In this document: positions 2,117 to 29,443 of the stretch, one piece after another
Layout of the letters: the number at the start of each line of letters is the position of its first letter
Numbering within the stretch: position 1 is the stretch's first letter
NCBI RefSeq assembly: GCF_017551775.1
Contig: NZ_JAFZKX010000099.1
Coordinates: forward strand, 1 to 41,076
From: Fibrobacter sp.
GTDB taxonomy: Bacteria > Fibrobacterota > Fibrobacteria > Fibrobacterales > Fibrobacteraceae
Reading direction: 5' to 3'
Length of the DNA: 41,076 bases
Made by a program: the position numbers and the translations under genes
Notes under the pieces: generated by a model
Database searches by the model: none
What the model was told of the DNA's origin: nothing
Seen by the model: only the letters and a program-made list of their open reading frames with translations

Positions 2117-3232
2117 TTACTTCGTTACAGTGAGTATCTGGACCTTTCCGCCGTACTTCACCATATAGACGCCAGCCTTGCCATACTTGGCGAGAAGGGC
2201 GCTATTGACGCTCGTCCCTGCCGGAACAAACACCTGACCTAGCGAATTGCCAAGCATATCGAAGACCATCATGTTGCGGTCCTGCGTGGCCATGCGGGCA
2301 ACCATTGGCAGAGCGATGGTCGAGCTGGAGGATTCAGCAGGCTTGATCGCGCTGGAAGACGGAGGCGCAACCGCACTGGAGGCCGGAGCGACAGAGCTAG
2401 AAGACGGGGCAACCGCGCTGGAAGAAACCGCAGCAGAGCTAGAGCTCTTGGGCGGGTCGTTCTGGACGTACACCTTGGCGTAGTTAAAATCGATCTTGCC
2501 AGAGGCACCCTGCTGTTCGGGGTACTGGCCGGCTTCACCCAGAATCTTGGCTTCGTACAGGGAGGAACCAAGGGCAATACCCTTTTCCTTCCAGGCCTTG
2601 AAATGTTCCGTAATGCTGATGGTACCACATTTACGGGCCGTACTTCTCAAGCTGTAAATCTGGTCGAAAGCCTTGTAACCTTCGATGGTAGCCCTGTTCG
2701 CACTCGCCGTAAAGACTTCGTATTCGGCACCGTCAACAGTAATCTTGCCCTTCGACGTTCCAAGCCAGTTCGGTCTGGAGGCCGGCCCCCAGTTGTCCAC
2801 GATGTACCATTCAATCAGCGGGTTCTGCATCCATCCGTAAATACCGGCATAGGCATACGAAATGGACTTGTCGTTGCTAAAGGTCTTCATGCTATAATCG
2901 GCAACGAGGTTGCCCACCCCGAGCGGATCCTTGCCGCTGTTCTGCCCGTAGAAAAGGCCCTCACGGCACAGGAAGTCGTCCGTGTTGGTGAACGAGCACG
3001 AGAAAGAGCCGTCGGTATAGAAATCCGTAGTAGCGCTGCCGCTCTTGGTCCACTGTTCATAGTGGTAATCACCGATATTGCCGGTTTCGCCCTTGTCCGA
3101 GCCTGCACCGACACTGAAAGACACCGTCTTTTTCGAGCCACCATGGCTCGCATTGCAGAAGTCCTGTGCAAAAGCACCAGAAGCAGCGAAAGCCACGCAA
3201 AGAGCCGAAGCCCCCAAAATCCTTACATTCAT
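2117..3232 (-). CDS. GH11 endo-1,4-beta-xylanase with Ser-rich linker and C-terminal sorting-like domain
   Basis: Secreted xylanase, 371 residues from the ATG at 3232. That start is chosen over an upstream in-frame ATG (3316) because GGAGGG sits five bases before it and a normal signal peptide ending AFA follows directly. The GH11 domain spans about 25-260, with nucleophile Glu141 in PLIEWYIVDNW and acid/base Glu233 in KILGEAG. A proline/alanine/serine linker follows. The C-terminal module of about 55 residues is clearly homologous to that of the xylanase at 906-1994: both contain DRN, VFD, VFVPAG and AGVYMVK. The catalytic domains of the three GH11 genes differ a lot, so this is an old duplication, probably giving enzymes for different xylans. 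Confidence 0.94.
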   Translation of the reverse strand: MNVRILGASALCVAFAASGAFAQDFCNASHGGSKKTVSFSVGAGSDKGETGNIGDYHYEQWTKSGSATTDFYTDGSFSCSFTNTDDFLCREGLFYGQNSGKDPLGVGNLVADYSMKTFSNDKSISYAYAGIYGWMQNPLIEWYIVDNWGPASRPNWLGTSKGKITVDGAEYEVFTASANRATIEGYKAFDQIYSLRSTARKCGTISITEHFKAWKEKGIALGSSLYEAKILGEAGQYPEQQGASGKIDFNYAKVYVQNDPPKSSSSAAVSSSAVAPSSSSVAPASSAVAPPSSSAIKPAESSSSTIALPMVARMATQDRNMMVFDMLGNSLGQVFVPAGTSVNSALLAKYGKAGVYMVKYGGKVQILTVTK

Positions 3233-3333
3233 TTTTCCCTCCGATTTGTAAGTTTTTTTACATATATATATTTTATTTTCGACAATTTCAACTTTTTTTA
3301 CTTTCCCTGCAATCATTTTCAGGACAAAAAAAC

Positions 3334-6939: not shown

Positions 6940-8028
6940 TTACCGGCCAATCCACAAATCGGGATGCCACAGGGAAACGCTGTCCGAACGAACCAAATAG
7001 TGCACTTCGGACTGGGGATAATCTATAAGAATAACGTCGTAGTAAGCCAGGTCCATGGACGACAAAATACCCACCTGCACCGGAATACCGGACAACCATT
7101 CCACATGGTCGAAAACCGTCATTTCGGGCGATATGATGGCCTTCACAATCTTTCCGGTTTCATCTTCGTAAAAGACGTACCGATGCCAGATACCCGATGT
7201 ATCCTGGGTGAATTCCCTGCCCATTTGTCCGGCCGTTTCCAGGAAGGAGACGAGCTTCGAAGTATCCTTGGAAACGGACACATTGCAAACCTGCTGCTCG
7301 TTGTAGCGTTCATCGACGACATCGTCTTCGTCTTTGGCCCAATGAAAATACAGGCGCGACGCTCCGGTAGCCGCAAAGCTGAAATCGTAAGCAAATCCCC
7401 CATTATAGCTGCGTCCAAACAACTTTTGCGGAGTACCGAACTTATTTCCCTTGTACGAAACCCGCCATGTTGCCGACGAAAACCATTCCAGTTTCTGGTC
7501 GTCTCCGTTAAAGTCGATATAGGTGATAACGGTATCGCCATCGGGCATCACAAACCATCTGGGAATCGCCGCGTTATCGACCTTCAAGGTGTCTATGTCT
7601 TCGGGATGTTCCAGGTTTATAACGTAAAGGCCGGAACCGAACGGTGCGCCTTCGTAGGCAGTGCAAAAAGCGATTTTCTTGCCATCGGGTGAAAACGTCG
7701 GATGATACGCATTGAAATCGTCCGCCAATTTCATCATCTTCACGGAATCGCCCGTGTAATCCAGCAGAATGAGGTATTCCTCATCGTTGTTGCGGAACAC
7801 GAGCTTAAACCGGTCACTCCCCAACAGCGCCTTTATCGAATCACGATCCATCTGCAACGAGAAATCCTTTTCAGAAAGATCCCTAGGGGCAATCTGCTTG
7901 TGGCTCGTATCCGGATCCAGCACAGAACCAGGATCCCCCTCATCGCCTGTAGACGTCCCCGACGTGGTATCGGGCCCGCACGCAACAAGCATAAGCAAGG
8001 CAAAAGGTAAGATCCATCTGAACGACAT
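6940..8028 (-). CDS. Lipoprotein with stand-alone TolB/PD40-like propeller, related to the middle of TIGR02171 proteins
   Basis: Predicted lipoprotein of 362 residues; signal peptide with lipobox LVAC and lipidated Cys17, then a low-complexity tether rich in Ser, Thr, Gly, Asp and Pro. The rest is a beta-propeller with a PD40-type repeat reading HPTFSPDGKKIAF. It shares many landmarks with the middle part of the three TIGR02171 proteins in this window: an IPRW motif, STWRV, KLF followed by a Tyr/Gly-rich loop, EQ(Q/A)CNVS, FDH.EW near the end and the closing WHPD.WIG. It lacks both the FGE-like N-terminal domain and the SGNH C-terminal domain. It could be a reduced paralogue or an ancestral propeller. 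An AAGGA ribosome site precedes the ATG at 8028. Function unknown; binding to a cell-surface or polysaccharide partner is a guess. Confidence 0.85.
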   Translation of the reverse strand: MSFRWILPFALLMLVACGPDTTSGTSTGDEGDPGSVLDPDTSHKQIAPRDLSEKDFSLQMDRDSIKALLGSDRFKLVFRNNDEEYLILLDYTGDSVKMMKLADDFNAYHPTFSPDGKKIAFCTAYEGAPFGSGLYVINLEHPEDIDTLKVDNAAIPRWFVMPDGDTVITYIDFNGDDQKLEWFSSATWRVSYKGNKFGTPQKLFGRSYNGGFAYDFSFAATGASRLYFHWAKDEDDVVDERYNEQQVCNVSVSKDTSKLVSFLETAGQMGREFTQDTSGIWHRYVFYEDETGKIVKAIISPEMTVFDHVEWLSGIPVQVGILSSMDLAYYDVILIDYPQSEVHYLVRSDSVSLWHPDLWIGR

Positions 8029-8071
8029 CCGGGTTCCTTCTTAAAAGGTCATGTTTTTATAATATAGCATT

Positions 8072-8103
8072 TTTGAAAAAAGAAAACCATATTTGTATAT
8101 TTG
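8072..8103 (+). promoter_or_regulatory. Bacteroidetes-type promoter (TTTG - 20 bp - TATATTTG) for the SpoU methyltransferase gene
   Basis: TTTG at 8072-8075 and TATATTTG at 8096-8103 are separated by 20 bases, the spacing of the -33/-7 promoter described in Bacteroides. The ATG at 8111 follows after only seven bases, so the transcript would begin at the start codon. Confidence 0.5.
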
Positions 8104-8110
8104 TCGTACA

Positions 8111-8866
8111 ATGTACACCGAACCGAAATTTCTCGCGATGAAGGAGAAATCCAAGGCCAAGCGCATGGCCGAGCTCCTGCGTGTCATCATTTTGCAACTG
8201 GGCGACGACGTGCCCCGCGCAAGGCGTGAATTCGAGACCTACGCCGGATGGATGAAGCTCCCCGAAGAGGAACGCCTTACGGGCAAAAACCAGGCCCAAA
8301 TGATAGACCTGTACAAGACTTTCCGTACACGCGCAGGCCTCGGGTTCGAACGCGACGTGTACCTGGAACAGGAACCCGGTGACCGCGAAATCGCCAACGA
8401 GAAGCCGATTCCGTTTGCCGTGCTCGTTCACAACCTGCGAAGCGCCTTCAACGTCGGTTCCATCATCAGGAGTACAGACTGTTTCGGACTCGAAGGGGTC
8501 CACCTGAGCGGATACAGCACGGGGCCCGACCACGTTACAGTCAAGAGCGCCGCCCGCGGCTGCCAGGAATGGATTCCCATCAAGCGGTGGGAAAGCCCGT
8601 TCGACTGCGTCAAATGGCACAAGGAAAACGGCTACGAGATTATCGCACTTGAAACAGGCGAAGACATTCCCGCCATCAATGAAGTTTCCTGGCCCAAGAA
8701 AGGGCTTATCATCCTCGGGAACGAGGAATTGGGAATCGCACCCGAACTCATGGCGGAAGCGACCATGAAAGTGACCATCCCCATGGCCGGACGCAAGGCA
8801 AGCATGAATGTCGCAGGTGCATTCGCCATCATGGCTTTCAAGATCCGCAGCGACTACACCCCGTAA
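8111..8866 (+). CDS. SpoU/TrmH family RNA 2'-O-methyltransferase
   Basis: SAM-dependent methyltransferase of the SPOUT class that methylates a ribose 2'-OH in tRNA or rRNA. All three SpoU motifs are present: motif 1 NLRSAFNVGSIIRS, motif 2 IILGNEELGI and motif 3 IPMAGRKASMNVAGAF. The protein has 251 residues from the ATG at 8111; an in-frame TTG upstream (8093) is rejected because it lies before the -10-like box. The N-terminal ~90 residues are charged and helical, unlike a minimal TrmL, so the exact target cannot be named. The next gene starts 11 bases after its stop, so the two may share a transcript, although their functions look unrelated. Confidence 0.92.
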   Translation: MYTEPKFLAMKEKSKAKRMAELLRVIILQLGDDVPRARREFETYAGWMKLPEEERLTGKNQAQMIDLYKTFRTRAGLGFERDVYLEQEPGDREIANEKPIPFAVLVHNLRSAFNVGSIIRSTDCFGLEGVHLSGYSTGPDHVTVKSAARGCQEWIPIKRWESPFDCVKWHKENGYEIIALETGEDIPAINEVSWPKKGLIILGNEELGIAPELMAEATMKVTIPMAGRKASMNVAGAFAIMAFKIRSDYTP

Positions 8867-8877
8867 CGAAAACACCA

Positions 8878-11589
8878 ATGAATATCCGCCTACTCCTATT
8901 CACATCATTGTGTTTTTCACTATTCATCGGCTGTTCCAACAGCGAACTTTACGCCTTTGCGGAAAACCAGTCCATCACGGGAAACTTCCCCGTCGAATTC
9001 AACAAGGTCAGCGCCACCGGCAAGAGCGTAAAAATAAAGGACACAAAGCAGGAGAACGATTCCGACAAGGAACTCTCGCTAATCGTGAATTTTACTTACG
9101 ACTTCTACATAGAAAAACATGAAGTCACATGCAAGGAATACTCGGTCTACCGTAAGACCAAATCCTGCGACAACGATTCCCTGCCCGTCACCAACGTCAC
9201 CTACATAGACGCCATTCTGTTCGCGAACGAAAAAAGCAAGGACCATGGCCTGGATACAGCCTATTCCTACACGTCCGTCACGTGCGACGAATACAACTGC
9301 ACCAAGATAGAGGGACTCTCCTTCCAGCCCAACGCCAATGCATACCGCCTTCCCACCGAAGCCGAATGGGTTTTCGTGGCAAAACAGGGCTGGAACACGA
9401 ACCACAGTTGGCATGCGGGCAATGCCAAGTCCACACCCCATCCCGTCTGCAGCAACGGGCAGAATAAAATCAGCATCTGCGACATGGAAGGCAACGTGAC
9501 GGAATGGGTCAACGACTGGCTCAACACCATCAAGGATACCACCATCACCAACTATATCGGCGCAGGCACCCCAAACGCGCTCGGTGAACGAGTCATCAAG
9601 GGCGGGAACTACCGCACCGCTGAAAAGAGCATAGACAGCCGCCGCGACGTCTATACAGTCACTTCGTCCACGACCAGCGATTATCTGGGCTTTAGACTCG
9701 CATATGGCCAGATAAGCGAAGCCGAATATTTCCAGAGCGAGCTAACCGCAGCGGACCTTCCCACCAACCTTACCATCAGCGCAGCCACCATACGCAAAAA
9801 GACCGGGACATTCAAGACAAAGATTGCATTCCGCCACGACATTAGCGGAAGTCTCGCCTTCGTAGATTTCTCCAGCGGAGACATTTCGCCCCTCGCCGTC
9901 ATAGATACCATAAATACGTTCCACCCGAGCATTTCTCCCGATGGCAAACGAGTCGCCTTCTGCACCAGTCCCGAGGGCGTCAACGGACAATCGCAGGTAT
10001 ACGTCCGCGATTTAAACATCAAGGGCTCCAACCTGGTAAAGCTCGATGTCGAAAACGCCTCCATCCCCCGCTGGAAAGTTCTTGACTCCAAGGACACCGT
10101 CATCATCTACGTGACATCGGCCGCCAACAACAAGTACGAACCTTCGTTCATGAGCAAGTCCACATGGATGGTTCCGTTTTCCGATGGAAAATTCGGCGAA
10201 CCCAAAAAACTCTTTGACGGAGCATACCATGGCGGTGTCGCCGACGACCTGAAATTCGCGGTAACGGGCTCCACGCTCCTGCGCGCAAGGACATCCGATT
10301 CCAAGGATACCATCTGGTACAACTCCGAGCAAGCGTGCAACGTCAGCCTGGCCAAAGACGGAAGCAAGCGCACCCTCTTCCTCGACTTCGGAGGAAAAAC
10401 GGGACGCAAATTCGTCGGCAAGGATTACGATGTCCACGAACAGATTCTCATCGCGGACAGCACCGGGAAACTCATCCAAGCCATCCCCGCCCCCAAGGGT
10501 TACACATTCGACCATACCGAATGGGTTACCGGGAACCTGATTGCCACAATGCTTACCGACCAGGAAGGCTCGCACAAAAAAATCGCCCTGGTGGATATTA
10601 CCGATTCCTCCATCCTGGAAATCGTCAAGGGAGACGAACTCTGGCACCCCGATATCTGGATTGGCGAAGCCAGCAAGACCGATTCCCCGCTCGACCAGGA
10701 CAGTGCCTCCGCTTACTGGCTCGGCAACGACGACGAACTGCTCGCCTCCAAAATGAGTGCCTTCTGGGCTATAACGGATTCCGTAGAAATCGTCGCCCTC
10801 GGATCTTCTCGAGTAAGCCTCGGATTCACGCCCATCGCCTTGACCTACGGAGTCTCGTTCAACATGGCCACGATTCCAAACGACATGGACGTCATACTCT
10901 ACCTGGCCGAGAACTACGTATTCCCCCACTGCAAGAAACTCGAATACCTCGTGGTTTCCCTCGATCTGGACTTGTGGTCCGAAGAACCCGGAATCAACGT
11001 CAAGAGGAACATCCTTTCGATACCGGGATTCATATACGACATAAACCACAATTTCTGGAAAAAAGAAAACGCGTCGTACATAATAGAAGCGAGCAACCTG
11101 CGGCTCTCGGAACAGGACTACCTAATGGGATACCTGAGAACAAAGGGCGCCGTAAAAGTTTCCGAAGAGAATTCCTGGACTTTCAACGGGCATAATCCCA
11201 ATGTCGTCGTGGGTGATTCCGTCTGGAGTGACAACAATATATACGAAACGGCCCTCCAGCAGTTCAAAGAGCTCCTCGACATGGCCAAGGAAAGGGACAT
11301 CAAGGTCCTAGGCGTGGTCTACCCGCAAAGTCCCGAATTTGCAAAGACCGGAGCCTTCGGCAGGCACGGCATGAGGCGCAGCACTGCGACCAAGGTTCTT
11401 GAAAGGATAGCCAATCTTCAGTCCACCTACCCGAACTTCATATTCATGGACGAGAACAAGATGGGCGATCACGACTACCCCGACAGGCTCGCCTACGACT
11501 ACGACCACCTGAACGTGTACGGCGGGTACAAGATTACCGCCCGCATCGACGCCATCTTGTGGAAGCACGGGAAAAAAGAAGAAGAATAA
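8878..11589 (+). CDS. TIGR02171-type lipoprotein: FGE-like domain, TolB-like propeller, SGNH hydrolase domain (copy 1)
   Basis: Predicted lipoprotein of 903 residues (lipobox FIGC, Cys19) of the Fibrobacter paralogous family TIGR02171, whose function is unknown. I see three modules. Residues ~70-285 are formylglycine-generating-enzyme-like: RLPTEAEWVF, GNVTEWVNDW, IKGGNYR and LGFRLAYG. Residues ~300-600 are a PD40/TolB-like propeller with HPSISPDGKRVAF and the closing WHPDIWIG. Residues ~630-890 look like an SGNH/GDSL hydrolase: GSSR at 642-645 and a Asp874-x-x-His877 dyad in DYDHLN followed by a Gly-containing helix start. The FGE-like part lacks the Cys pair of true FGE, so it is probably a binding domain. 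Here the SGNH dyad is intact, so this copy could be an active esterase; inference only. A terminator-like hairpin follows the stop. Confidence 0.9.
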   Translation: MNIRLLLFTSLCFSLFIGCSNSELYAFAENQSITGNFPVEFNKVSATGKSVKIKDTKQENDSDKELSLIVNFTYDFYIEKHEVTCKEYSVYRKTKSCDNDSLPVTNVTYIDAILFANEKSKDHGLDTAYSYTSVTCDEYNCTKIEGLSFQPNANAYRLPTEAEWVFVAKQGWNTNHSWHAGNAKSTPHPVCSNGQNKISICDMEGNVTEWVNDWLNTIKDTTITNYIGAGTPNALGERVIKGGNYRTAEKSIDSRRDVYTVTSSTTSDYLGFRLAYGQISEAEYFQSELTAADLPTNLTISAATIRKKTGTFKTKIAFRHDISGSLAFVDFSSGDISPLAVIDTINTFHPSISPDGKRVAFCTSPEGVNGQSQVYVRDLNIKGSNLVKLDVENASIPRWKVLDSKDTVIIYVTSAANNKYEPSFMSKSTWMVPFSDGKFGEPKKLFDGAYHGGVADDLKFAVTGSTLLRARTSDSKDTIWYNSEQACNVSLAKDGSKRTLFLDFGGKTGRKFVGKDYDVHEQILIADSTGKLIQAIPAPKGYTFDHTEWVTGNLIATMLTDQEGSHKKIALVDITDSSILEIVKGDELWHPDIWIGEASKTDSPLDQDSASAYWLGNDDELLASKMSAFWAITDSVEIVALGSSRVSLGFTPIALTYGVSFNMATIPNDMDVILYLAENYVFPHCKKLEYLVVSLDLDLWSEEPGINVKRNILSIPGFIYDINHNFWKKENASYIIEASNLRLSEQDYLMGYLRTKGAVKVSEENSWTFNGHNPNVVVGDSVWSDNNIYETALQQFKELLDMAKERDIKVLGVVYPQSPEFAKTGAFGRHGMRRSTATKVLERIANLQSTYPNFIFMDENKMGDHDYPDRLAYDYDHLNVYGGYKITARIDAILWKHGKKEEE

Positions 11590-11593
11590 ACAA

Positions 11594-11620
11594 AAACGCA
11601 CAGGTTTTCCCTGCGCGTTT
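11594..11620. terminator. Hairpin between convergent genes, likely bidirectional terminator
   Basis: AAACGCACAGG pairs with CCTGCGCGTTT over 10 of 11 positions around a 5-base loop. It lies 4 bases after the plus-strand TIGR02171 gene and 25 bases before the end of the convergent minus-strand gene. The T-run is short. Confidence 0.6.
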
Positions 11621-11645
11621 CTTCTGAATCATTACTCAAAAGCGG

Positions 11646-12845
11646 TTACTTGGAGAGCGCCTTCACTGCTTCGGTCAGGCGGTCAATGGCCTGGATGAGT
11701 TCGTCCATCTTGGCTTCGCTCACGCCACCTGCGACAGCGGCGGTAGCAGCCTGAGCTGCGGTTTCAACAGCCTTCGCGGGAGCTTCCTTCACGGGGAGCT
11801 TGCCGAACCAGATATCGGGCCAGCGGTCGTTGCCCGTATGGTACGTAATGCGGGCCGCGCTTTCCACCGGTTCGCCAATCTTCCAGATGTAAAGTTCGTA
11901 GTCGAAGATATCGTGGTCGTGACCCTTGTCGGTTGCGCCCCACACGAGCCACTTGCCATCGGGCGAGAGGCGCGGGAAGTATTCATGACTGCGGCGTCCG
12001 GGCAGGTCCATGAGCTTCACGTTTTTCGGGATGCCGAAGAAGCCAACCTTCTCGATTTGCTTGCCGTCTTTAGCGGAGAACCAGAGGATTTCACTCGGGG
12101 CAGCAGTGCCGCCGTTACCCGTCGGATTCACGCGGTAAATCTTGCTGCCGTCGAAATTCCAGTCAATCTGGCAACCATCGCCGGACTTGGTCCACTGGGA
12201 CTTTTCCAAATCCCACACGCCCGTTTCGCGCATGGAACCGCGAAGCGTAATCGCGACATGCTTGCCGTCGGGGCTCATGTTCGGTTCCTGCAAAATCACG
12301 CCGGACTTGTTGAAGGCCTTCTCGCCATCGAGAATCATCTTCTCGGTCTTGCTTGCGAGATCCATCGTAAACACCTTGCCCGCACGGCTGAACACGATGG
12401 ACTTGCCGTCGGGCCTCCAGGTGCCCCACGTGGCGTTGTCCACCACCTTGCGTGCATTCTCGCCCGAAATGTCGACCATCCACAGGTCCCACTTTTCAGG
12501 ATAGTTTGCATCGTTCTCGGGAACCCAGCCGCCCTTGCTGCGGTTAAACAGCACCGTGGAGCCATCCGGAGAAATACGCGGGAACCAGTCCACATTGTCG
12601 CCGCTCGTGAGCGCACGCTGATTTGTTCCGTCGGCGTTCATGATCCAAATATCGTGATGGGAATTTGCACGGCTCGTCGCCCAGACAATCGCACCTTCGA
12701 GTTTTCCCTTGAGGGCCGAAAGCGCCTTCTGCTCGTCGGCAGTCGGGTCAACAGCTGCACCCGTGGGTGCACCCTGCTGGGCAAACACGGCAGACGCAGA
12801 AGCGACCAAAAACAGGCCAAACAACGGTTTAAGCAAATTCTTCAT
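11646..12845 (-). CDS. Exported TolB-like beta-propeller protein with C-terminal coiled coil
   Basis: Periplasmic or surface propeller of 399 residues. Signal peptide (about 1-22, ending VFA) is followed by TolB/PD40-type blades: HHDIWIMNADGTNQ, FPRISPDGSTVLF, DLWMVDISGENAR, TWRPDGKSIVFSR, EPNMSPDGKHVAI and FPRLSPDGKWLVW. The C-terminal ~25 residues, MDELIQAIDRLTEAV, are an amphipathic helix likely to oligomerise. I start at the ATG at 12845, which has GAGG six bases upstream, instead of an in-frame ATG four codons earlier without a site. It is a soluble protein, not a lipoprotein, and its blades are more TolB-like than those of the TIGR02171 group; WPDIWFG near the end recalls the WHPDIWIG of that group. 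Adjacent upstream gene is the GH8 glycanase. Ligand unknown. Confidence 0.85.
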   Translation of the reverse strand: MKNLLKPLFGLFLVASASAVFAQQGAPTGAAVDPTADEQKALSALKGKLEGAIVWATSRANSHHDIWIMNADGTNQRALTSGDNVDWFPRISPDGSTVLFNRSKGGWVPENDANYPEKWDLWMVDISGENARKVVDNATWGTWRPDGKSIVFSRAGKVFTMDLASKTEKMILDGEKAFNKSGVILQEPNMSPDGKHVAITLRGSMRETGVWDLEKSQWTKSGDGCQIDWNFDGSKIYRVNPTGNGGTAAPSEILWFSAKDGKQIEKVGFFGIPKNVKLMDLPGRRSHEYFPRLSPDGKWLVWGATDKGHDHDIFDYELYIWKIGEPVESAARITYHTGNDRWPDIWFGKLPVKEAPAKAVETAAQAATAAVAGGVSEAKMDELIQAIDRLTEAVKALSK

Positions 12846-12871
12846 AAAAATCCTCATTTGTTGATAACAAT

Positions 12872-12913
12872 ATAAAAAAAGTCCATGCGGCTAGCCCACA
12901 TAGACTTTTTTTT
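12872..12913 (-). terminator. Rho-independent terminator after the GH8 gene
   Basis: On the minus strand AAAAAGTCTATG pairs imperfectly with CATGGACTTTTT around a GC-rich loop region, ending in a run of T. It lies 22 bases past the GH8 stop. Confidence 0.8.
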
Positions 12914-12935
12914 GTATAAGCAATAAGCAGAATTT

Positions 12936-14420
12936 CTACCGCACGTTAATCTTACGCACAATAGTTTCGCCCGAAACTTTCGCCTTCACGACATAGAGCC
13001 CGCTCGGGATTCCCTCGAGAGAAACCTTCACGGAACCGCTGGCCTTGCCTTCCCACAGGGTACCGATGGTAGCACCGGACACGGAGAACAAGTCAATGCG
13101 GGCAATTTCGGAACCGGCAATTTCGAGAGTGCGCCCCTGCAAATGGATTGCAGATGCAATTTTGCGCTGGGCCGGAGCGATGGCGAATGTCGAACTGGAA
13201 CTTCCAGGACCGACAATGCCGCCGGAAGACTGCGGAGGCACTGCAGAAGAACTGCTGACCGGCACAGAACTGGAGCTCTGCGGGGCGGGAGGATTGGCGA
13301 AGTTCGGCATGTTGCCCGAAACCAGGAGGCCATTCAAAAGTTTGAGCGACTGGTTGAAGTAGTTCTCGTTGCCAAGCGCCACCGCCTCTTTCCAGTACTC
13401 GTCAAGCTTGCTCTGGTACTTGGCATCGGAGATGAGCGCAGTCATAAGCGACGTGACAAACGTGCTGTTGTGGTCATTGCCGAGGTCACCGGAAGCCCTG
13501 CGAACGGGGCCCTTCATGTTCGACGCACTGACCTTAGAAACAAATTCGGCCATCTTCTTGTCGATAGCGAGAGCGCGCTGGTCGCCATGCCAGCATACGG
13601 CCTTCGCATTGCGCCACGGGGCACGGGAAGCATCATAGTTGTAGTAGTCATCTTCACTCTTGCCGTTCTTGTCGGTCCAGTCATCAATAAGGCCCGTGCT
13701 GACTTCGGCAGAACTCGCTTCGTACAGTTTCATGTTCGCATCGTAAGCGGTAGTATTCCAGAACTCGGCATTCTCGGTATCGACCAAAGCAAACAACGGC
13801 ATATACGCGGGGTCAAAATAGCCTGGGTTCTTACGGTTATAACCAGCATCGCCCCACTTGTCGCCTGGCAAATGCAAGCCGTTGCTTTCGAACTCGGACT
13901 TTTTCATTGCTTGAATAAGCTTTTTCGCGTCTTCCTTGTACTTTTCGTCACCGAACTGGTAGTAGGCCATAATCAGCGCTGCGGCGGCATCGATATCGCC
14001 ATCAAGCGCAGCTCCCTGGTCATACTTCGTCGTAAGATTTCCGACCTTCCATACCATCAGGCCGTTCTCGTTCATCATCGACTTATAGAAGTTCCAGATC
14101 TTGTCGAACTGGCTCTGGTAACTCGTGGTGTTGTCACTGAAATAGACCATCAGGAGCATGCCATAGCCCACACCTTCCGAGAAGTATTCATTGGAACCCG
14201 GATTAGAACGGACACCGGCCACATCGCCCTGCTCGTTGTACATGTCCTTCATCCAAGCCTGGAACTGGCTTTTCAGTTGCTCCGAAGCAGCGGCCTTGTC
14301 GCTCAACAGCGTCGCATTTCCACCGTAGTCGGACATCTGCGGGAACGGAAAATTTACTGCGGCCTGAGCAAGGCCAAAAGCAAAGAGGCCTGCAAGCCCC
14401 ATTTTAACCAAACATTTCAT
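12936..14420 (-). CDS. GH8 glycoside hydrolase (endoglucanase or xylanase) with Ser-rich linker and T9SS-like tail
   Basis: Secreted inverting glycanase, 494 residues from the ATG at 14420. That start has AGGAG six bases upstream; in-frame ATGs further 5' lack one. Signal peptide ~1-21, GH8 catalytic domain ~22-375. Glu82 in SEGVGYGM fits the general acid, and ALDGDIDAAAALIMA matches the GH8 signature with Asp140/Asp142. A linker of SSSS blocks (~380-415) leads to a C-terminal module ending in GLYVVKAKVSGETIVRKINVR-like strands, a T9SS type A sorting domain by eye. GH8 includes cellulases, xylanases, chitosanases and licheninases; the sequence alone does not settle the substrate. Neighbouring GH11 genes and general context favour cellulose or xylan. 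Confidence 0.93.
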   Translation of the reverse strand: MKCLVKMGLAGLFAFGLAQAAVNFPFPQMSDYGGNATLLSDKAAASEQLKSQFQAWMKDMYNEQGDVAGVRSNPGSNEYFSEGVGYGMLLMVYFSDNTTSYQSQFDKIWNFYKSMMNENGLMVWKVGNLTTKYDQGAALDGDIDAAAALIMAYYQFGDEKYKEDAKKLIQAMKKSEFESNGLHLPGDKWGDAGYNRKNPGYFDPAYMPLFALVDTENAEFWNTTAYDANMKLYEASSAEVSTGLIDDWTDKNGKSEDDYYNYDASRAPWRNAKAVCWHGDQRALAIDKKMAEFVSKVSASNMKGPVRRASGDLGNDHNSTFVTSLMTALISDAKYQSKLDEYWKEAVALGNENYFNQSLKLLNGLLVSGNMPNFANPPAPQSSSSVPVSSSSAVPPQSSGGIVGPGSSSSTFAIAPAQRKIASAIHLQGRTLEIAGSEIARIDLFSVSGATIGTLWEGKASGSVKVSLEGIPSGLYVVKAKVSGETIVRKINVR

Positions 14421-14490
14421 ACACATCTCCTTGTGCCCAGTAGGCAAGTTCATCCAGGTAAAAGATAATTCATTACAGGCAGCATCAAAA

Positions 14491-17226
14491 TTATTTCAAC
14501 GATTCCAACACCGAAACCAAGCGCGAAGTCATCTGTATTGCCCCCTGGTAACTCAAATGATCACGGTTTTGCGCCATTTCATCGGTGTAATCGTGGTTTC
14601 CCATCTTATTTTCGTCCATCAGCACAAAATAGGGTTTTGCCTTGGCAAGCGAATCCAGGCGCGCGATTTTCTTGGGAGCCACGCTGCGCTGCAATCCGTA
14701 CAGGCCGAACGAACCCGTATTCTTGTATTGCGGAGCCTGCGGGAAAATAATCCCTATCACATAGATGCCTTTTTCCGATGCGATATCGACAATTTCCATC
14801 AGGTCTTCCATTCTGGCATCCAGGCAAGCGTTTTCCTTTTCCGAGAAAACGGAATCCATCAGGACTTCGATGGCATCGGCACCCCATCCACGCGACGGAG
14901 GATACAGACCTCCCCTGTCCGTGAAGCTGTTCGTCTCTTCCGCGGAAGCCGGGAAGGAATTCTCGACCGCATCAACAAAGCCCTTCGGAATGCTGTCCTT
15001 CCAGAAGTCGTGATTGGAATCGTATTGGTAGCCGGGCCCGCCAAGAAGCACCAGAGCCAGGTGATCTTCATAGCAGTGCCAACCATCCAGATCGATAGAA
15101 ACGGCAATCGCCTTCAAATTCTCCGAATGGTTCAAGGCATAGTTCTTGATAAAGTAATGGTCCCTGGCAGGGTCGATTCCCGTCACCCCGAAATTCAGCA
15201 TTTCCCATTCCGGATAAAGATCCGGATGGACGCCCATTTCCATCCTGGAGCTGCCCGAAAGGAACACCTTGGTCGTGCCGAGCCTCTTCCAGAACTTTTC
15301 CAGCTTGATACGGAAGCGGCCCTGTTCCAATTCGTGGTTTTCCATAAGGTACACACCCGCGCTATCCAGGTCGAGATCCGAATCGGCATCCGGTACGACA
15401 ATCGGTTTCGCCCACATGGACGGATGCCACAATTCGGTGCCTTCCAGAAGGTCCGTGAAGGAGCTATCCGAAAGGTTCACGAGGACTATCTTCTGGTGAG
15501 CGCCGCCCACGTTCGCAAGCGTGGCCACAATCTGGTTACGTCCCGGAACCCATTCGGTATGGTCGAAGGAATATCCGGCTGGAGCCGCGACAGACTGAAC
15601 CAGTTTTCCGGTGCTATCCACGACCAGCAGGCGTTCGTGCGTCCCATACTCCTCGCCCACGAACTTGCGACCCGCCTGCCCGCCGAAATCGAGGAACAGC
15701 GTACGCTTGCTTCCATCCTTCGCAATTGCGGCATTGCAGGCCTGTTCGCCATCATACCAGACAGTATCGCGGGCCTTTGACGCAACCGTGGAGCCGGAAT
15801 CCGCCACGCGGACGCGCAGGAGCCTCGCCCCCGAAACCGCAAGCGAATTGTCTTCGCTTATGCCGCCATGGTAGGCCCCGTCAAAAAGTTTTTCGGGCTT
15901 GCCGAACGCACCGTTCGCAAAGCGCACCTGCCATGTAGACGTAGACTTGAAGGCGGATTCATCGCTGTTGTTGCCCGCATCGGTCACGTACACGATTACC
16001 GTATCGCCGTTTTCAAGCACACGCCAGCGCGGAATGGCAGCGTTTTCCACATCGAGTTTTACAAGGTTCGTGCCTACCAAATTCAAATCGCGCACGTAAA
16101 GACTAGATTTTCCGCTGATTCCCTCATATCCCGTACTGAAGGCTACGCGCACTCCGTTCGGCGAAATTTCAGGATGGAACACTTCGAGCGTGTCCTCTAT
16201 TTCCTTGACCGACAACACGCCGCCGGAATAGTCGACAAAAGCCAAATTTCCGGACACATCATTCCTCAAAGCGAGTTTCACCTTGTAGGTTCCCGTAACA
16301 GCCCGGATGGTCGAGGCCTGCGCCTTCCCCAAAATTCTGCTTTCGCTGACATTCCCGTCGTCGCCCATCCATTGCGGATCGGGAATATGGCCGAACGCAA
16401 GACGGAAGCCCACATAATCCGTTCGAGTCGAAGTCACCGTGTAGACATCGCCGCGACCATAAAGCGTGATGGACGCAGCCTGGTTCCTGTAGCTGCCGCC
16501 TTTCACCACGCGCTGGCCAATAACACCCCCATCGGGAGCGCCCACATAGTTCTCAATCGTCTTATCACGGTAGTGACCCAGCCAGTCGTTCACCCACTCC
16601 AGCGCATTACCGGCCATATCGCAGAGATCTCCGGCTTCAGACTTGCCACAGACCGAATGCAGCCTATAGCCAGAATTTTCCGCCGTCCATGCCTTTTGCG
16701 GATTCCATTTCTGGCCCGCCGCCAAGACCCATTCCGCTTCTGTCGGGATGCGGTAAGCGTCAAACTCGGGGTGATATGCGAAACCCTCCAGATTCGTGCA
16801 ATGGCCTTCGCCATCGAATTTCATCGAATAATACGTGTAGGCCGTATCGAAGCCTTCGGATTTGCTCCGTTCATTCGCGAACAAGACGGCATCGTAGAAG
16901 GTCACGTTTGTCGCAGGAACATCATCGCTCCTGCAATCCAGAACCAGCCCAACCGATGGTTTCATGAGCGCATTGAACTCACCGCAGGTCACTTCGTGCC
17001 GGCCAATCGAGAAATCATAGCTGAAGGTGACCCTCATGCTCGGGCGCTCATCGGGGCGCGCCTGTTCAGCGTCCGTCCCAAGGACAACGAACGCATTGGT
17101 AGCGGAGACCCGCATCATTCCCGGAAGCGAGTCCTCCTTGATATCGGCTTCCGACTGCGTTATGTATTCAGAATTGGAGCAGGCGGCCAGTCCACACAAC
17201 AGCAGCAAAATTAAAAGTCTTCCCAT
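14491..17226 (-). CDS. TIGR02171-type lipoprotein: FGE-like, propeller, SGNH-like domains (copy 2)
   Basis: Lipoprotein of 911 residues (lipobox LAAC, Cys16). The ATG at 17226 is chosen because GGAGGG lies three bases upstream and a clean signal peptide follows; it overlaps the end of the preceding gene by 16 bases. Modules as in copy 1: FGE-like (~60-290, with IPTEAEWVLA, GNALEWVNDW, VKGGSYRNQ, GFRLAFG), propeller (~310-620) and SGNH-like (~645-905, with GSSR near residue 658). The C-terminal DENKMGNHDY block is conserved, but the acid position three before the final His is Asn (NRDH) where copy 1 has Asp. The propeller is very close to copy 3, while the SGNH-like part is much more diverged. 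Function unknown. Confidence 0.9.
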   Translation of the reverse strand: MGRLLILLLLCGLAACSNSEYITQSEADIKEDSLPGMMRVSATNAFVVLGTDAEQARPDERPSMRVTFSYDFSIGRHEVTCGEFNALMKPSVGLVLDCRSDDVPATNVTFYDAVLFANERSKSEGFDTAYTYYSMKFDGEGHCTNLEGFAYHPEFDAYRIPTEAEWVLAAGQKWNPQKAWTAENSGYRLHSVCGKSEAGDLCDMAGNALEWVNDWLGHYRDKTIENYVGAPDGGVIGQRVVKGGSYRNQAASITLYGRGDVYTVTSTRTDYVGFRLAFGHIPDPQWMGDDGNVSESRILGKAQASTIRAVTGTYKVKLALRNDVSGNLAFVDYSGGVLSVKEIEDTLEVFHPEISPNGVRVAFSTGYEGISGKSSLYVRDLNLVGTNLVKLDVENAAIPRWRVLENGDTVIVYVTDAGNNSDESAFKSTSTWQVRFANGAFGKPEKLFDGAYHGGISEDNSLAVSGARLLRVRVADSGSTVASKARDTVWYDGEQACNAAIAKDGSKRTLFLDFGGQAGRKFVGEEYGTHERLLVVDSTGKLVQSVAAPAGYSFDHTEWVPGRNQIVATLANVGGAHQKIVLVNLSDSSFTDLLEGTELWHPSMWAKPIVVPDADSDLDLDSAGVYLMENHELEQGRFRIKLEKFWKRLGTTKVFLSGSSRMEMGVHPDLYPEWEMLNFGVTGIDPARDHYFIKNYALNHSENLKAIAVSIDLDGWHCYEDHLALVLLGGPGYQYDSNHDFWKDSIPKGFVDAVENSFPASAEETNSFTDRGGLYPPSRGWGADAIEVLMDSVFSEKENACLDARMEDLMEIVDIASEKGIYVIGIIFPQAPQYKNTGSFGLYGLQRSVAPKKIARLDSLAKAKPYFVLMDENKMGNHDYTDEMAQNRDHLSYQGAIQMTSRLVSVLESLK

Positions 17227-20018
17227 TTTCCCTCCAACGACTTCAGAACCGAATCCAGCCGAGCAGTCATTTGCAGAGCACCAAGATAGCATAAATGATC
17301 CCTATTGCCAGCCATCTGGTCTTCGTAATCATGGTTTCCCATCTTGTTTTCGTCCATAAATATAAAATTATGGTAGGAATCTTGAAGTTCCTCGACCTTT
17401 TTCAGAAGGGCCGGAGCCTCGCTCCGCAAGATGCCATACTTTCCGAACGAACCCGTATTCTTGAAATTCGGGCTCTGCGGGAAAACAACTCCGATGACAT
17501 AAATTCCGTAGTTTTCCGAAATTTCAATAATTCTTCTTAAATGCGATAGCGATGCGTAGAAGTTGTCCGACGCATAGCTCATCCACGTGCTGTCAAACTC
17601 GACGGACGGATTTTCTTCCCAGCTTCCCGATTCGCCGTAGGTATAGCCACGCGTCATCTTGAGGTCTTTTACGTAATATTCCATGCCCAAGGATTCCGAT
17701 GTCCTTTCGGCAAGGCCCTCCGGGTAACCGTCCTTCCAGAAATTGTGATTCTCGTCGTAAACGTAGCCAGGAATCTTCTTGTAGTCCATGTAGAAGAAAT
17801 TGTAGTCGCTATTTTCGTCCTTATGCCACAAGTCTATATCGAGCGAGATGATGATATACTTCAGCTTCTTTACGTGGGGAATCAGATAGTTTTCCAAGAT
17901 AAATTCCGAGGAGATTACCATGTTGGGCACGTTAGACAAGTTCAACACAAAGAATTCTTCGCTGAACTTATCGGGAATAACACCCGTAAGGGTCCTCGAC
18001 GATCCGAGAATGGCCACGTTCGCCACATCCTTGTAGAGCCAAATCAACTCCATCTTGTAGCGCATGATAATTGAACCCACGTCACCGCCTTCCAGGTAAT
18101 ACACGCCGGCACTGTCCACGTCCAGATCAACAGCGCCCTGCACCACAGGGCCAGCATTCACCCACAGGCTCGGATGCCATAACTCGTCGCCTTCGACAAG
18201 ATTGACCACGGAACTGTCCGCAAGATTCACCAGCACAATCTTCTGGTGCGCGCCACCGGCATTCGCAAGCGTCGCAACGACCAAGTTCTTACCGCCCGAA
18301 ACCCACTCGCCATGATCGAACGAATAGCCAGCGGGAGCCGGAGCGCTTTGGACAAGCGACCCGGTACTATCCACGACAAGCAGGCGTTCATGCGTGCCGT
18401 ATTCCTCCCCCACAAATTCGCGACCGGTCTTGCCGCCAAAATCGAGGAACAGCGTACGCTTGCTGCTGTCTTTTGCGAGCGAAGCATTGCAGGCCTGTTC
18501 ACCGCCGTACCATACCGTATCGCGAGCATTCGCCGCGACAGTGGAACCGGAATCCGCAACGCGGGCGCGCAGGAGCCTCGCTCCCGAAACCGCAAGCGTA
18601 TTGTCTTCGCTTATGCCGCCATGGTAGGCGCCATCGAAAAGTTTCTCGGGCTTGCCGAACTTTCCATTCGACCATTTCACCTGCCAGGTAGAAGCGGACT
18701 TGAAAGAAGCCTCTTCCTTGTTGTTGCCGGCATCCGTCACATAGACTATCGCCGTATCACCGTTTTCAAGAACGCGCCACCGCGGGATTGCCGCACTTTC
18801 CACATCGAGCTTCACAAGGTCCGTCCCGTTCTCGTTCAGATTGCGAACATAAAGCGAGGACTTTCCCGCAGCGCCCTCGAGCCCCGTGCAGAACGCGACC
18901 TTCTTTCCATCGGGAGAAATCTCCGGATGGTAAACGTCCAGCGTATCGGGGATTTCAACCACCGACAGGATTCCGTTGGAATAGTCCATGTAGGCGAGAT
19001 TTCTAGTAACGTCGTTACGGAAAGCCAGTTTAGCCTTGTAGGTTCCGGTCAACGAGCGCAATGTCGACGAACTTGCAATCGGTACAATCCGCGTCATATT
19101 CGCACGGCCGTCGCGGCCGATCCACACCGCATCGGGAATCTGCCCAAAAGCAAGGCGGAAGCCGACGTAGTCCGCCCGCGTCGAAGACGTGACCGTATAG
19201 ATGTCGCCGCGCCCATAAAGCGTGATAGCCGAAGCCTGGTTGCGGTAGCTGCCGCCCTTTACCACGCGTTCTCCCAGCGAGCCCCCATCAGGAGCGCCCA
19301 CATAGTTCGAGACCGTCGTATCGCGGAACAGGCCCAGCCAATCGTTCACCCATTCCATCGCATTGCCGGCCATGTCGCAGGGGCCGTCACCCGCTTTCGG
19401 GAAAGTACAGACTTCGTGGAGCTTAAATCCGGAATTTTCGGCATTCCAGCCCTCGGAAGCATCCCAGTGCAATCCCGCGACAAGCACCCATTCGGCCTCC
19501 GTGGGCAAGCGGTACGCATCGACTTCCGGATGGAACATCAAGCCTTCCAAATTCGTGCAATGCTTTTGCGCATCCAGTACGACGCCGCTGTAAGTGTATG
19601 CGGTATCAAACTTTTCCGCCTTGCTACGGGCATTCGCAAAAAGAACCGCGTCGTAGTAGGTCACGCTCGTAGCCGGCAAATTGCCGCTGGAGCAGTCAAG
19701 TTCAAGCCCGGTTTCGTTTTTCATCAAGGCGCTGAATTCGCCACAAGTGACCTCGTGACGGCCCAGCGAAAACGAATAGTCCAGAACAGATTTCATCCGC
19801 GGGCGTTCATTCGACTTCGCCTGCGCATCATCGGTACCCAGGGCCACCTTGGCCTCGTAGGTCGTTATACGAAGCATGTCCGGGGACGACTCCCCCGCCG
19901 TTTCCACTACGACTCCGGTGTAACCATCCGCCGAATTCGAACACGAAGCGAAAAAGCACATACACGCCAAAACCCCCAACAGGGTCAGGACGGATTTGCT
20001 GTCTTGCAGCGGCTTCAT
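17211..20018 (-). CDS. TIGR02171-type lipoprotein: FGE-like, propeller, SGNH-like domains (copy 3)
   Basis: Lipoprotein of 935 residues from the ATG at 20018 (another in-frame ATG lies two codons upstream at 20024; neither has a ribosome site). The lipobox FASC gives Cys26. Modules: FGE-like (LPTEAEWVLVAG, GNAMEWVNDW, VKGGSYRNQ), propeller (HPEISPDGKKVAF and closing WHPSLW) and SGNH-like (GSSR, SLDIDLWH, NHNFWK, PQSPNFKNTGSFG, DENKMGNHDY). As in copy 2 the last block reads NRDHL, so the Asp of the DxxH dyad is replaced. It heads a two-gene unit with copy 2. TATATTGA at 20028-20035 is a possible -10 box. The many stretches nearly identical to copy 2 suggest recent duplication or gene conversion. 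Confidence 0.9.
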   Translation of the reverse strand: MKPLQDSKSVLTLLGVLACMCFFASCSNSADGYTGVVVETAGESSPDMLRITTYEAKVALGTDDAQAKSNERPRMKSVLDYSFSLGRHEVTCGEFSALMKNETGLELDCSSGNLPATSVTYYDAVLFANARSKAEKFDTAYTYSGVVLDAQKHCTNLEGLMFHPEVDAYRLPTEAEWVLVAGLHWDASEGWNAENSGFKLHEVCTFPKAGDGPCDMAGNAMEWVNDWLGLFRDTTVSNYVGAPDGGSLGERVVKGGSYRNQASAITLYGRGDIYTVTSSTRADYVGFRLAFGQIPDAVWIGRDGRANMTRIVPIASSSTLRSLTGTYKAKLAFRNDVTRNLAYMDYSNGILSVVEIPDTLDVYHPEISPDGKKVAFCTGLEGAAGKSSLYVRNLNENGTDLVKLDVESAAIPRWRVLENGDTAIVYVTDAGNNKEEASFKSASTWQVKWSNGKFGKPEKLFDGAYHGGISEDNTLAVSGARLLRARVADSGSTVAANARDTVWYGGEQACNASLAKDSSKRTLFLDFGGKTGREFVGEEYGTHERLLVVDSTGSLVQSAPAPAGYSFDHGEWVSGGKNLVVATLANAGGAHQKIVLVNLADSSVVNLVEGDELWHPSLWVNAGPVVQGAVDLDVDSAGVYYLEGGDVGSIIMRYKMELIWLYKDVANVAILGSSRTLTGVIPDKFSEEFFVLNLSNVPNMVISSEFILENYLIPHVKKLKYIIISLDIDLWHKDENSDYNFFYMDYKKIPGYVYDENHNFWKDGYPEGLAERTSESLGMEYYVKDLKMTRGYTYGESGSWEENPSVEFDSTWMSYASDNFYASLSHLRRIIEISENYGIYVIGVVFPQSPNFKNTGSFGKYGILRSEAPALLKKVEELQDSYHNFIFMDENKMGNHDYEDQMAGNRDHLCYLGALQMTARLDSVLKSLEGKWEDF

Positions 20019-27760: not shown

Positions 27761-29443
27761 CTAGTTTAGGCATTCAAAACAGAGCGCCGCTACCAGCGGG
27801 GCGTTCCAATTGATGGCGACCTCGTTGCTCGCAAAAGAGACGCGCTCGTCGGTATAAGAGAATCCCGGCTGCGGTCCCGGATAATGCGGGAACCTGTGCA
27901 GGTCCTGCCTGTCGGCGTTGATTCCGCCGGCGACAAGCCCGGGAATAGGTTCCTCGATACCGTCGGAATGGCTTATGCGATGATGAATGAACTTCGGGGA
28001 GCTCCAGGCGGAACCGGTCACGAAGCAGCAGTCCACAGGATTCTTGCCGAAAACGAAGTCCAGCATCTTTTTCGCGCAATCCACATAAACAGAAGACGGG
28101 AACCATTCATTCACCAAGAACAACGTAAGCGCATGGTTTGCAATTTCGCCGTTCGAACCCCAGATGAACCTGCGGATGGAAAGCCCGTACGGGTCTTCCG
28201 ACGCAAGCCGCACGATTTCGTCGGCAACGACCTTCAGCGTATTGCGGGCACGTACCTGCAAATCCGGGTCCACGGACTGCAAGGCTAGCGCAATCCACCC
28301 CAAGTTCTGCGTATCGCGCCAGTCCAGCCCGAACGAAGGCGGGCATTTTTCCATGTCCGAAAGCAGACGATTCCTGAAATGGTCGCAGCCTTCCCGGCCG
28401 CAGTCTACGCATACCTTGCCGCATACCTCGCGGAAAAGCATCGCGCGTACCCAGAAAAACTCGTCGTCATAGCGCTCGTCACCGTAGCCGCCGCTACCTT
28501 CGGTATTGTGCGGGTAGGTGACATCGGGATTCTCGATTGCCCAGCGATAGGCGCGAATCGACGCTTCCAAGCACTGTTTTGCAAAACCGGGATAAGCCTT
28601 CGCAAACACGCGGTGCGCCTGCGCAAGCGCCCCCGCAAAATTGAGCGTCGACGTGGTGGATTTGCCAAGAATCTGGCGCTTCTGAGCCTCGTCGGATTCC
28701 TTCGGTGTCACGAAGCCGTCCCAACGAACAGGCGACACCTTGAAGAACACGCCACCATCCGTATCCTGCATGCGGAGGAAAAACTCCAGTTCAAAACGGA
28801 TTTCTTCGAGCAGGTTCGCACGGAAAGATCCCGCATAAAACAATTCGGCATTGCCAAAAGCCACGCGCCGGTCATCCGCGAATTCGGCAGCTAGCAGGAG
28901 GGTTGCGACCGAGACCCCGCCGTTCACGAGATACTTGCCGTAATCACCGGCATCGTACCAGCCGCCATGGGCATTCCACGTGCCCTCGCGTTCCATGCTC
29001 GGGTGGAATTCTATGCAATCGTCCAGATGAGCCGCAGGCCTCGCCCATTTTCCCGCGCGGTCAGGAGTCAATTCCACGCCGCTACGCTGGAAATAAAAAG
29101 ACTTGAGCGTCGACGAAAGCTGTTCCAAGACAAGCCTGTCCGACACCTCGAAAAACTTGGATTCAACAAGGACATTTCCCTTCGTATCCACCACGGAAAT
29201 GCGGTAACGGCCCACGGCTTCAAGCGAAGTGAAACATCCTTCCCACACGAACTCATCCGTATACGAGCAGGAGCCCTTCTCGGCCATAGCCGCGCCAAAC
29301 ACGCGTTCACCGTTTTCTGCAAAGACTTCGAACCACGGCAACATCCCCTTCAGGGGATTGTCCGTCGAATCGCACGTAAGCAAAAACACCTTCGGCCCCT
29401 TGAGGGCGTAGCCGACATGGTTGTAGCGGACCGAAAACTTCAT
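27761..29443 (-). CDS. GH9 glycoside hydrolase with N-terminal Ig-like domain, no signal peptide
   Basis: Inverting cellulase-family enzyme of 560 residues. Residues ~1-100 form the CelD_N-type immunoglobulin-like domain; ~105-558 form the (alpha/alpha)6 GH9 barrel. Catalytic base candidates Asp164 and Asp167 lie in GGWYDAGDYGKY, the acid is Glu541 in SNEVAINWNAP, and the conserved His region reads FIHHRISHSDG. The N-terminus MKFSVRYNHVGY starts directly in the first Ig strand: no signal peptide, lipobox or sorting tail, unlike the GH11 and GH8 enzymes here. It may therefore act inside the cell on cello-oligosaccharides, or leave by another route. The ftsE stop is 74 bases upstream; an imperfect inverted repeat lies between. 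Confidence 0.94.
   Translation of the reverse strand: MKFSVRYNHVGYALKGPKVFLLTCDSTDNPLKGMLPWFEVFAENGERVFGAAMAEKGSCSYTDEFVWEGCFTSLEAVGRYRISVVDTKGNVLVESKFFEVSDRLVLEQLSSTLKSFYFQRSGVELTPDRAGKWARPAAHLDDCIEFHPSMEREGTWNAHGGWYDAGDYGKYLVNGGVSVATLLLAAEFADDRRVAFGNAELFYAGSFRANLLEEIRFELEFFLRMQDTDGGVFFKVSPVRWDGFVTPKESDEAQKRQILGKSTTSTLNFAGALAQAHRVFAKAYPGFAKQCLEASIRAYRWAIENPDVTYPHNTEGSGGYGDERYDDEFFWVRAMLFREVCGKVCVDCGREGCDHFRNRLLSDMEKCPPSFGLDWRDTQNLGWIALALQSVDPDLQVRARNTLKVVADEIVRLASEDPYGLSIRRFIWGSNGEIANHALTLFLVNEWFPSSVYVDCAKKMLDFVFGKNPVDCCFVTGSAWSSPKFIHHRISHSDGIEEPIPGLVAGGINADRQDLHRFPHYPGPQPGFSYTDERVSFASNEVAINWNAPLVAALCFECLN

Follow-up and report, generated by a model that had tools for sequence, protein, structure and literature searches.

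Three neighbouring genes in a stretch of Fibrobacter DNA each encode a lipoprotein of about 900 residues that combines a domain resembling the formylglycine-generating enzyme (FGE), a TolB-like propeller and an SGNH hydrolase-like domain, and the question raised by this locus is what such proteins do. The stretch (41,076 nucleotides of Fibrobacter sp., contig NZ_JAFZKX010000099.1; hereafter the window) is contig C99 of the 114-contig, 3.2 Mb draft genome of a rumen-type Fibrobacter. An earlier interpretation made from the window's letters (the sequence-only reading) regarded the proteins as surface esterases working with xylanases. We propose instead, with a probability of roughly 0.6, that proteins of the TIGR02171 family, to which all three belong, are lipid-anchored, DltD-like SGNH proteins of a Fibrobacterota-wide envelope O-acylation system of the MBOAT/AlgX type. 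TIGR02171 is already known as a family name without a stated function, and our literature searches found no mention of it and nothing on these Fibrobacter proteins; what is new here is the C-terminal SGNH assignment, the phylum-wide range and the acylation-cluster partners.

Domain architecture of the TIGR02171 lipoproteins

All three proteins are matched end to end by the NCBIfam model TIGR02171 (Fb_sc_TIGR02171, 'TIGR02171 family lipoprotein') at scores (Table 1) above its curated cut-off of 544 bits, and the genome contains eight full-length copies. The shared domain order is confirmed by Pfam, which detects FGE-sulfatase in all three (E values of 2e-23 to 5e-25) and, weakly, a PD40 repeat in one of them, and by an AlphaFold2 model of the 937-residue lipoprotein 1 (51-row alignment; mean pLDDT 90.6, pTM 0.87). 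With Foldseek, the N-terminal domain of this model matches the Treponema denticola variable protein TvpA (2y3c; E 7.5e-13) and human FGE (E 3.6e-11), and the middle domain matches TolB (1crz; E 8e-9), its best structural match. TIGR02171 proteins nevertheless differ from TolB in lacking its N-terminal domain, and their propeller is a sequence family of its own.

The positions of the FGE active-site cysteines (336 and 341 in human numbering) are occupied by Asn and Ile when the window protein is aligned to human FGE, and the relatives likewise have no Cys there. It follows that the N-terminal domain is not a formylglycine-generating enzyme, and for the same reason it remains plausible, judging from the sequence, that it serves as a built-in binding fold. 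TvpA is its best match by both structure and profile, and TIGR02171 proteins resemble TvpA and other FGE-fold binding proteins in having the fold without the chemistry, but differ from TvpA in carrying a propeller and an SGNH domain on the same polypeptide. PorK also matches by profile (6e-12), but TvpA and CarF match better.

The C-terminal domain is predicted to adopt an alpha/beta/alpha SGNH fold. Modelled alone (298 residues, 81-row alignment), it reaches a pLDDT of 96.5 and a pTM of 0.94, and Foldseek matches it to SGNH acylhydrolases with a probability of 1.00 and TM scores, normalised to the target, of 0.53–0.66 for the main matches (4iyj, 3p94, 2hsj). The matches also include PatB (7tlv; 0.52 to target), the carbohydrate esterase PbeAcXE and a sialic acid esterase; because the query exceeds the SGNH targets by about 90 residues, the query-normalised TM scores are lower. 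Searching the sequences of solved structures with the C-terminal profile gave no significant match, and the fold assignment therefore rests on the model.

The putative active site is strongly conserved, and the Ser and His that the sequence-only reading had singled out in GSSR and DHL have held up along with the fold. Among 142 sequences (122 from Fibrobacter and 20 from deep branches), Ser676 and His910 are invariant except in one gapped row, and Gly674, Asn695, Asp757 and His898 are nearly so. Ser676 follows strand 1 and His910 precedes the last helix, as in the canonical SGNH blocks I and V; Asn695, after strand 2, is invariant in all sequences but one, and the census offers no clear candidate for the block III Asn. 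Position 907, three residues before His910, is Asp in 68 sequences and Asn in 70.

By sequence, the nearest named families of this domain appear to be DltD and DUF1574. DltD is the SGNH D-alanyl transferase partner of the MBOAT protein DltB. Among 81 C-terminal domains, Pfam matches DltD in seven (best E 2.4e-6), DUF1574 in three and SGNH (AT3-fused) in three, and the NCBIfam DltD model matches six; the C-terminal domains of the window have no meaningful Pfam match, to DltD or otherwise. Two of the DltD matches, looked at individually, score 14.3 and 14.5 bits against the Pfam gathering score of 22.7 and span a C-terminal portion of the profile that contains block V. Because these matches are weak, kinship with DltD (PF04914/TIGR04092) is likely, but membership is not. 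The likeness lies in these profile matches of some members, the S...H order, the Asp/Asn-x-x-His-Leu of block V and the association with an MBOAT. Unlike DltD, TIGR02171 proteins are fused to FGE-like and propeller domains, are lipid-anchored and belong to Gram-negative bacteria, and they have AlgX-like, transglutaminase-like and polytopic partners in place of a DltA/B/C/X operon, of which none was seen. There is no match to PF16822 (AlgX), and the S...H order is not the permuted H...S order of AlgX and AlgJ.

Genomic partners across the Fibrobacterota

Clustering of the open reading frames in loci of 58 relatives reveals a tight operon in many Fibrobacteraceae genomes, with gaps mostly of about −20 to +40 nucleotides, in which one to four TIGR02171 genes are preceded by c6 and c5 and followed by c1. 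The c6 product is an AlgX-like SGNH lipoprotein (PF16822, 6.8e-20) and that of c5 is transglutaminase-like (Transglut_core2). The polytopic membrane protein c1 has no informative match to a Pfam family or PDB chain; that it is a glycosyltransferase of the GT-C type would be a guess from its DxD motif. The operon is often trailed by a gene for a GH8 glycanase (c3) and one for a PD40 propeller (c2), the latter represented in the window at 11646–12845; TIGR02171 has a GH8 gene as a neighbour in 14 loci and a GH5 gene in six. In the genome under study, c6, c5, TIGR02171 and c1 occur together on contig C93.

Profiles of c1, c6 and c2 were searched over 168 Fibrobacterota genomes, and in deeply branching families these genes form a cluster on one strand that runs from a small exported protein through MBOAT, AlgX-like protein, c6, in some cases c5, and c1 to c2; some genomes have the whole cluster, and in the others it is incomplete or split. 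The MBOAT is AlgI-like and adjoins two AlgX-like genes, and FLYFQF is the C-terminal sequence of each of the ten MBOATs checked. One of these ten is the copy on contig C86 of the genome under study, where an orthologous MBOAT (52% identical to a deep one) stands with its small partner; a second AlgX-like gene is on contig C7. In the PatAB and Dlt systems a hexapeptide FxYxxF acts as an acyl shuttle from the MBOAT to the SGNH protein (PMC12148441), and the FLYFQF tail fits this motif of MBOAT–SGNH systems. Deep-branch TIGR02171 neighbourhoods show no shared gene context.

The c2 propeller is 64–92% identical across Fibrobacter species, above the conservation of TIGR02171 itself, and in deep Fibrobacterota it adjoins the AlgX-like, c1 and MBOAT genes; the window propeller is thus a member of the phylum-wide cluster. 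The sequence-only reading had recognised it as an exported propeller next to a GH8 glycanase, which is correct, but its grouping with the lipoproteins does not stand, as it has no TIGR02171 match and belongs to a separate PD40 family. A membrane proteome study of 2015 recorded Fisuc_0369, a WD40 envelope protein of 44 kDa, on all substrates (PMC4619616); it is similar in size to the c2 product and may correspond to it.

All clusters compared have a small exported protein of about 150 residues ahead of the AlgI-like MBOAT (30–57% identity; L121:6786-7187 and loci L177, L178, L179, L182, L185 and L186). The two of these proteins that were scanned have no match in Pfam, and the small protein is possibly an AlgF-like partner.

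The distribution of TIGR02171 follows that of the cluster. A genome was scored as positive if it held a full-length match, or pieces at contig ends (the first survey scored four candidates per genome, and 33 genomes were rescored), and by this measure the family, which had been taken as confined to Fibrobacter, occurs in 101 of the 168 genomes and in several families of the phylum. There are several features of this distribution. First, TIGR02171 and c1 occur together in 93 genomes, TIGR02171 alone in 8, c1 alone in 6 and neither in 61 (phi 0.83), and the corresponding counts are 92, 9, 4 and 63 for c6 (phi 0.84) and 93, 8, 6 and 61 for c2 (phi 0.83); genus-level tests for the three partner genes give p values of 7e-7, 1e-7 and 3e-5. 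Second, the GH10 xylanase used as a control gives 96, 5, 54 and 13 (phi 0.23, and 0.11 outside the genus Fibrobacter). Third, TIGR02171 is absent from 13 of 80 genomes of the genus Fibrobacter, and all 13 lack c1, c6 and c2 while all 13 keep GH10; an MBOAT search in two of the TIGR02171-less Fibrobacter genomes found only a different, 620-residue type. Finally, of two genomes of one genus, both 99% complete, one (G016) has TIGR02171, c1, c6 and c2 and the other (G017) lacks all four.

The locus and its variants

The features of the window are collected in Table 1. The minus strand carries two TIGR02171 genes followed by GH8 and c2, and the third TIGR02171 gene is on the plus strand. The genes of the island described by the sequence-only reading are all present, but it is interrupted by an unrelated SpoU-type methyltransferase gene. 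The start of lipoprotein 2 is most likely at 17226 rather than at 17292, where the longest open reading frame begins, as indicated by the lipoprotein signal MGRLLILLLLCGLAACSNS; with this start the gene overlaps its upstream neighbour by 16 nucleotides. The GH8 gene is a recurrent neighbour and probably stands outside the mechanism.

Table 1. Coordinates of features in the window.
Feature	Position	Strand	Basis or remarks
TIGR02171 lipoprotein 1, 937 residues	17211..20024	-	1297 bits to TIGR02171; AlphaFold2 model, Foldseek; signal/lipobox Cys28, FGE-like ~59-292, propeller ~300-622, SGNH ~640-937
Predicted SGNH domain of lipoprotein 1	17214..18107	-	Ser676 in GSSR, His910 in DHL; AlphaFold2, Foldseek, residue census
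TIGR02171 lipoprotein 2	14491..17226	-	1222 bits
Predicted SGNH domain of lipoprotein 2 (GSSR ... DHL)	14494..15387	-	Included in alignment A2
TIGR02171 lipoprotein 3, 903 residues	8878..11589	+	1077 bits
Predicted SGNH domain of lipoprotein 3 (GSSR ... DYDHL)	10711..11586	+	Included in alignment A2
Propeller-only TIGR02171 relative, putative lipoprotein (LMLVACG)	6940..8028	-	262 bits, TIGR02171 profile 303-607
Exported PD40 propeller, cluster core gene c2	11646..12845 (longest open reading frame to 12857)	-	PD40 1.1e-14
GH8 glycanase with type IX secretion sorting tail	12936..14453	-	PF01270 3.7e-31; TIGR04183 24.9 bits
SpoU-type RNA methyltransferase	8093..8866	+	PF00588 5.9e-31
Promoter-like site	20137-20110	-	Upstream of lipoprotein 1 gene
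Terminator-like hairpin	12912-12874	-	3' of GH8
Terminator-like hairpin	11622-11592	-	3' of PD40 propeller
GH11 xylanase pair, adjacent	906-1994 and 2117-3316	-	Type IX tail match weak in first
GH9 cellulase	27761-29443	-	Outside island
Protein with two Fib_succ_major domains	39191-40810	-	Outside island

The fourth gene of the family in the window is, as had been read from its sequence, the propeller alone, and it scores below the TIGR02171 cut-off. Propeller-only genes (that of the window, one on contig C29 and those of loci L047, L048, L075 and L093) form one group in a quick tree (SH-aLRT 90), and the window gene has orthologues in two other genomes. There is one case of an FGE-propeller gene without an SGNH domain. 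A gene on contig C33 (L118:12425-13219) that seemed to encode the SGNH domain as a stand-alone module was rejected as a deletion relic lacking the Ser region, since its signal peptide is fused by an internal deletion to the part of the C-terminal domain 3' of the catalytic Ser. Open frames of about 1843 residues (G097:C2, G119:C59 and G095:C14) apparently hold two head-to-tail copies and are perhaps natural tandem fusions. A further TIGR02171 tandem (L049; JAEEUY010000111.1) is on a 4.4 kb contig labelled Bacteroidales and is probably mis-binned.

A possible role in envelope O-acylation

TIGR02171 proteins travel across the phylum with envelope-acylation genes, and are therefore likelier to modify the envelope than to aid fibre digestion. 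By analogy with alginate acetylation (AlgI, AlgJ, AlgX), Dlt and PatAB (PMC9487903, PMC12148441) we infer a relay, including its chemistry, order, substrate and acceptor, acyl group and cellular location. In its first step, the MBOAT of the inner membrane would charge the Tyr in its own FLYFQF tail with an acyl group, probably acetyl; a membrane-anchored AlgX-like protein would take the group over, and SGNH proteins of the AlgJ/AlgX type would hand it on or use it. The lipid-anchored c6 and TIGR02171 proteins would then pass the group to an envelope polymer or take it from one, with the DltD-like SGNH domain (Ser676/His910) catalysing transfer or, less likely, removal. The FGE/C-type-lectin-like domain, which is non-catalytic, may together with the TolB-like propeller bind the polymer or partner proteins, and acceptor specificity could come from the presence of several paralogues. 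As in alginate acetylation, and in the WssH/I system of cellulose, there is an AlgI-like MBOAT with an acyl-shuttle tail and a pair of SGNH proteins of the AlgX type, of which one is apparently anchored in the membrane and the other is a lipoprotein. Unlike those systems, that of the Fibrobacterota adds transglutaminase-like and polytopic proteins, a PD40 propeller and multi-copy TIGR02171 lipoproteins, and no gene of the cluster was recognised as encoding a polymer synthase. We suggest, only tentatively, that this amounts to a previously undescribed phylum-wide machine, in which an AlgI-like MBOAT feeds a set of lipid-anchored, modular TIGR02171 transferases that each bring lectin-like and propeller modules for recognition, so that one acyl source serves many acceptors, be they polymers or proteins.

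Several observations weigh against this proposal. The TIGR02171 copies of the window are away from the AlgX-like, transglutaminase-like and polytopic genes, which sit on another contig, and TIGR02171 lies inside the operon in Fibrobacteraceae only, the deep-branch members being unlinked to the cluster. The partners are missing from two TIGR02171-bearing genomes of about 95% completeness (G132 and G150), and about five genomes with the cluster have no full-length TIGR02171. The co-occurrence statistics ignore phylogeny, and the losses within Fibrobacter may represent a single clade. The acid position before the His is Asn in about half of the Fibrobacter members, and most members match DltD weakly or not at all. 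Finally, the lipoproteins have Ser at +2 after the lipid Cys, which by the E. coli rule suggests an outer membrane location beyond the direct reach of an inner-membrane MBOAT; a relay is therefore needed if they are transferases.

The main alternative, though an unlikely one, is that these proteins are deacylases (esterases) of the same envelope system that trim acyl groups set by the MBOAT and AlgX-type proteins. It shares with our proposal the evidence of operon, cluster and co-occurrence, and it agrees with the outer-membrane type of the lipoprotein signal and with the common fold and catalytic residues of SGNH acyltransferases and esterases (PMC9487903); the apparent likeness to DltD and DUF1574 nonetheless favours transfer over hydrolysis. 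A surface carbohydrate esterase, deacetylating plant xylan or other polysaccharides alongside the nearby glycanases, has rather little probability. The SGNH fold, the structural matches to PbeAcXE and a sialic acid esterase, the GH8 and GH5 neighbours and the GH11 genes upstream in the window would all suit it, but sequence comparison points to DltD and DUF1574 and not to known xylan esterase families, the operon partners are acylation-type genes, and neither a carbohydrate-binding module nor a type IX sorting tail is reported by Pfam or NCBIfam in the three lipoproteins. Nor does the family's distribution track GH10, and a xylanase link as its main driver was rejected on that control. The structural part of the sequence-only reading is thus retained, and its pairing of a surface esterase with xylanases is replaced, with moderate confidence, by envelope acylation.

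It is improbable that the proteins are non-catalytic scaffolds or adhesins, with ligands bound by the FGE-like domain and propeller and an SGNH domain left over as a structural relic. Different species retain propeller-only genes, one FGE-propeller gene lacks the SGNH domain, the FGE-like domain has no catalytic Cys and replacement of Asp by Asn is common at the acid position, yet Ser676, His910, Asp757 and His898 are essentially invariant throughout the phylum, unlike what is expected of a relic. A component of type IX secretion or gliding, as the PorK/GldK-like FGE domain might suggest, is very improbable indeed: the PorK profile does match, but the best GldK score is 37 bits against an NCBIfam cut-off of 350, TvpA and CarF match better, and PorK/GldK kinship was rejected on these grounds. 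We also know of no GldK with an SGNH domain.

An envelope role for TIGR02171 would concern a large paralogous family without known function in major rumen fibre degraders, and the link to an acylation cluster opens a direct test of what these proteins do. It suggests that many interchangeable SGNH lipoproteins modify an envelope polymer in Fibrobacter, and it moves the focus away from esterases acting on plant fibre and towards the surface of the bacterium itself, with possible relevance to adhesion to cellulose.

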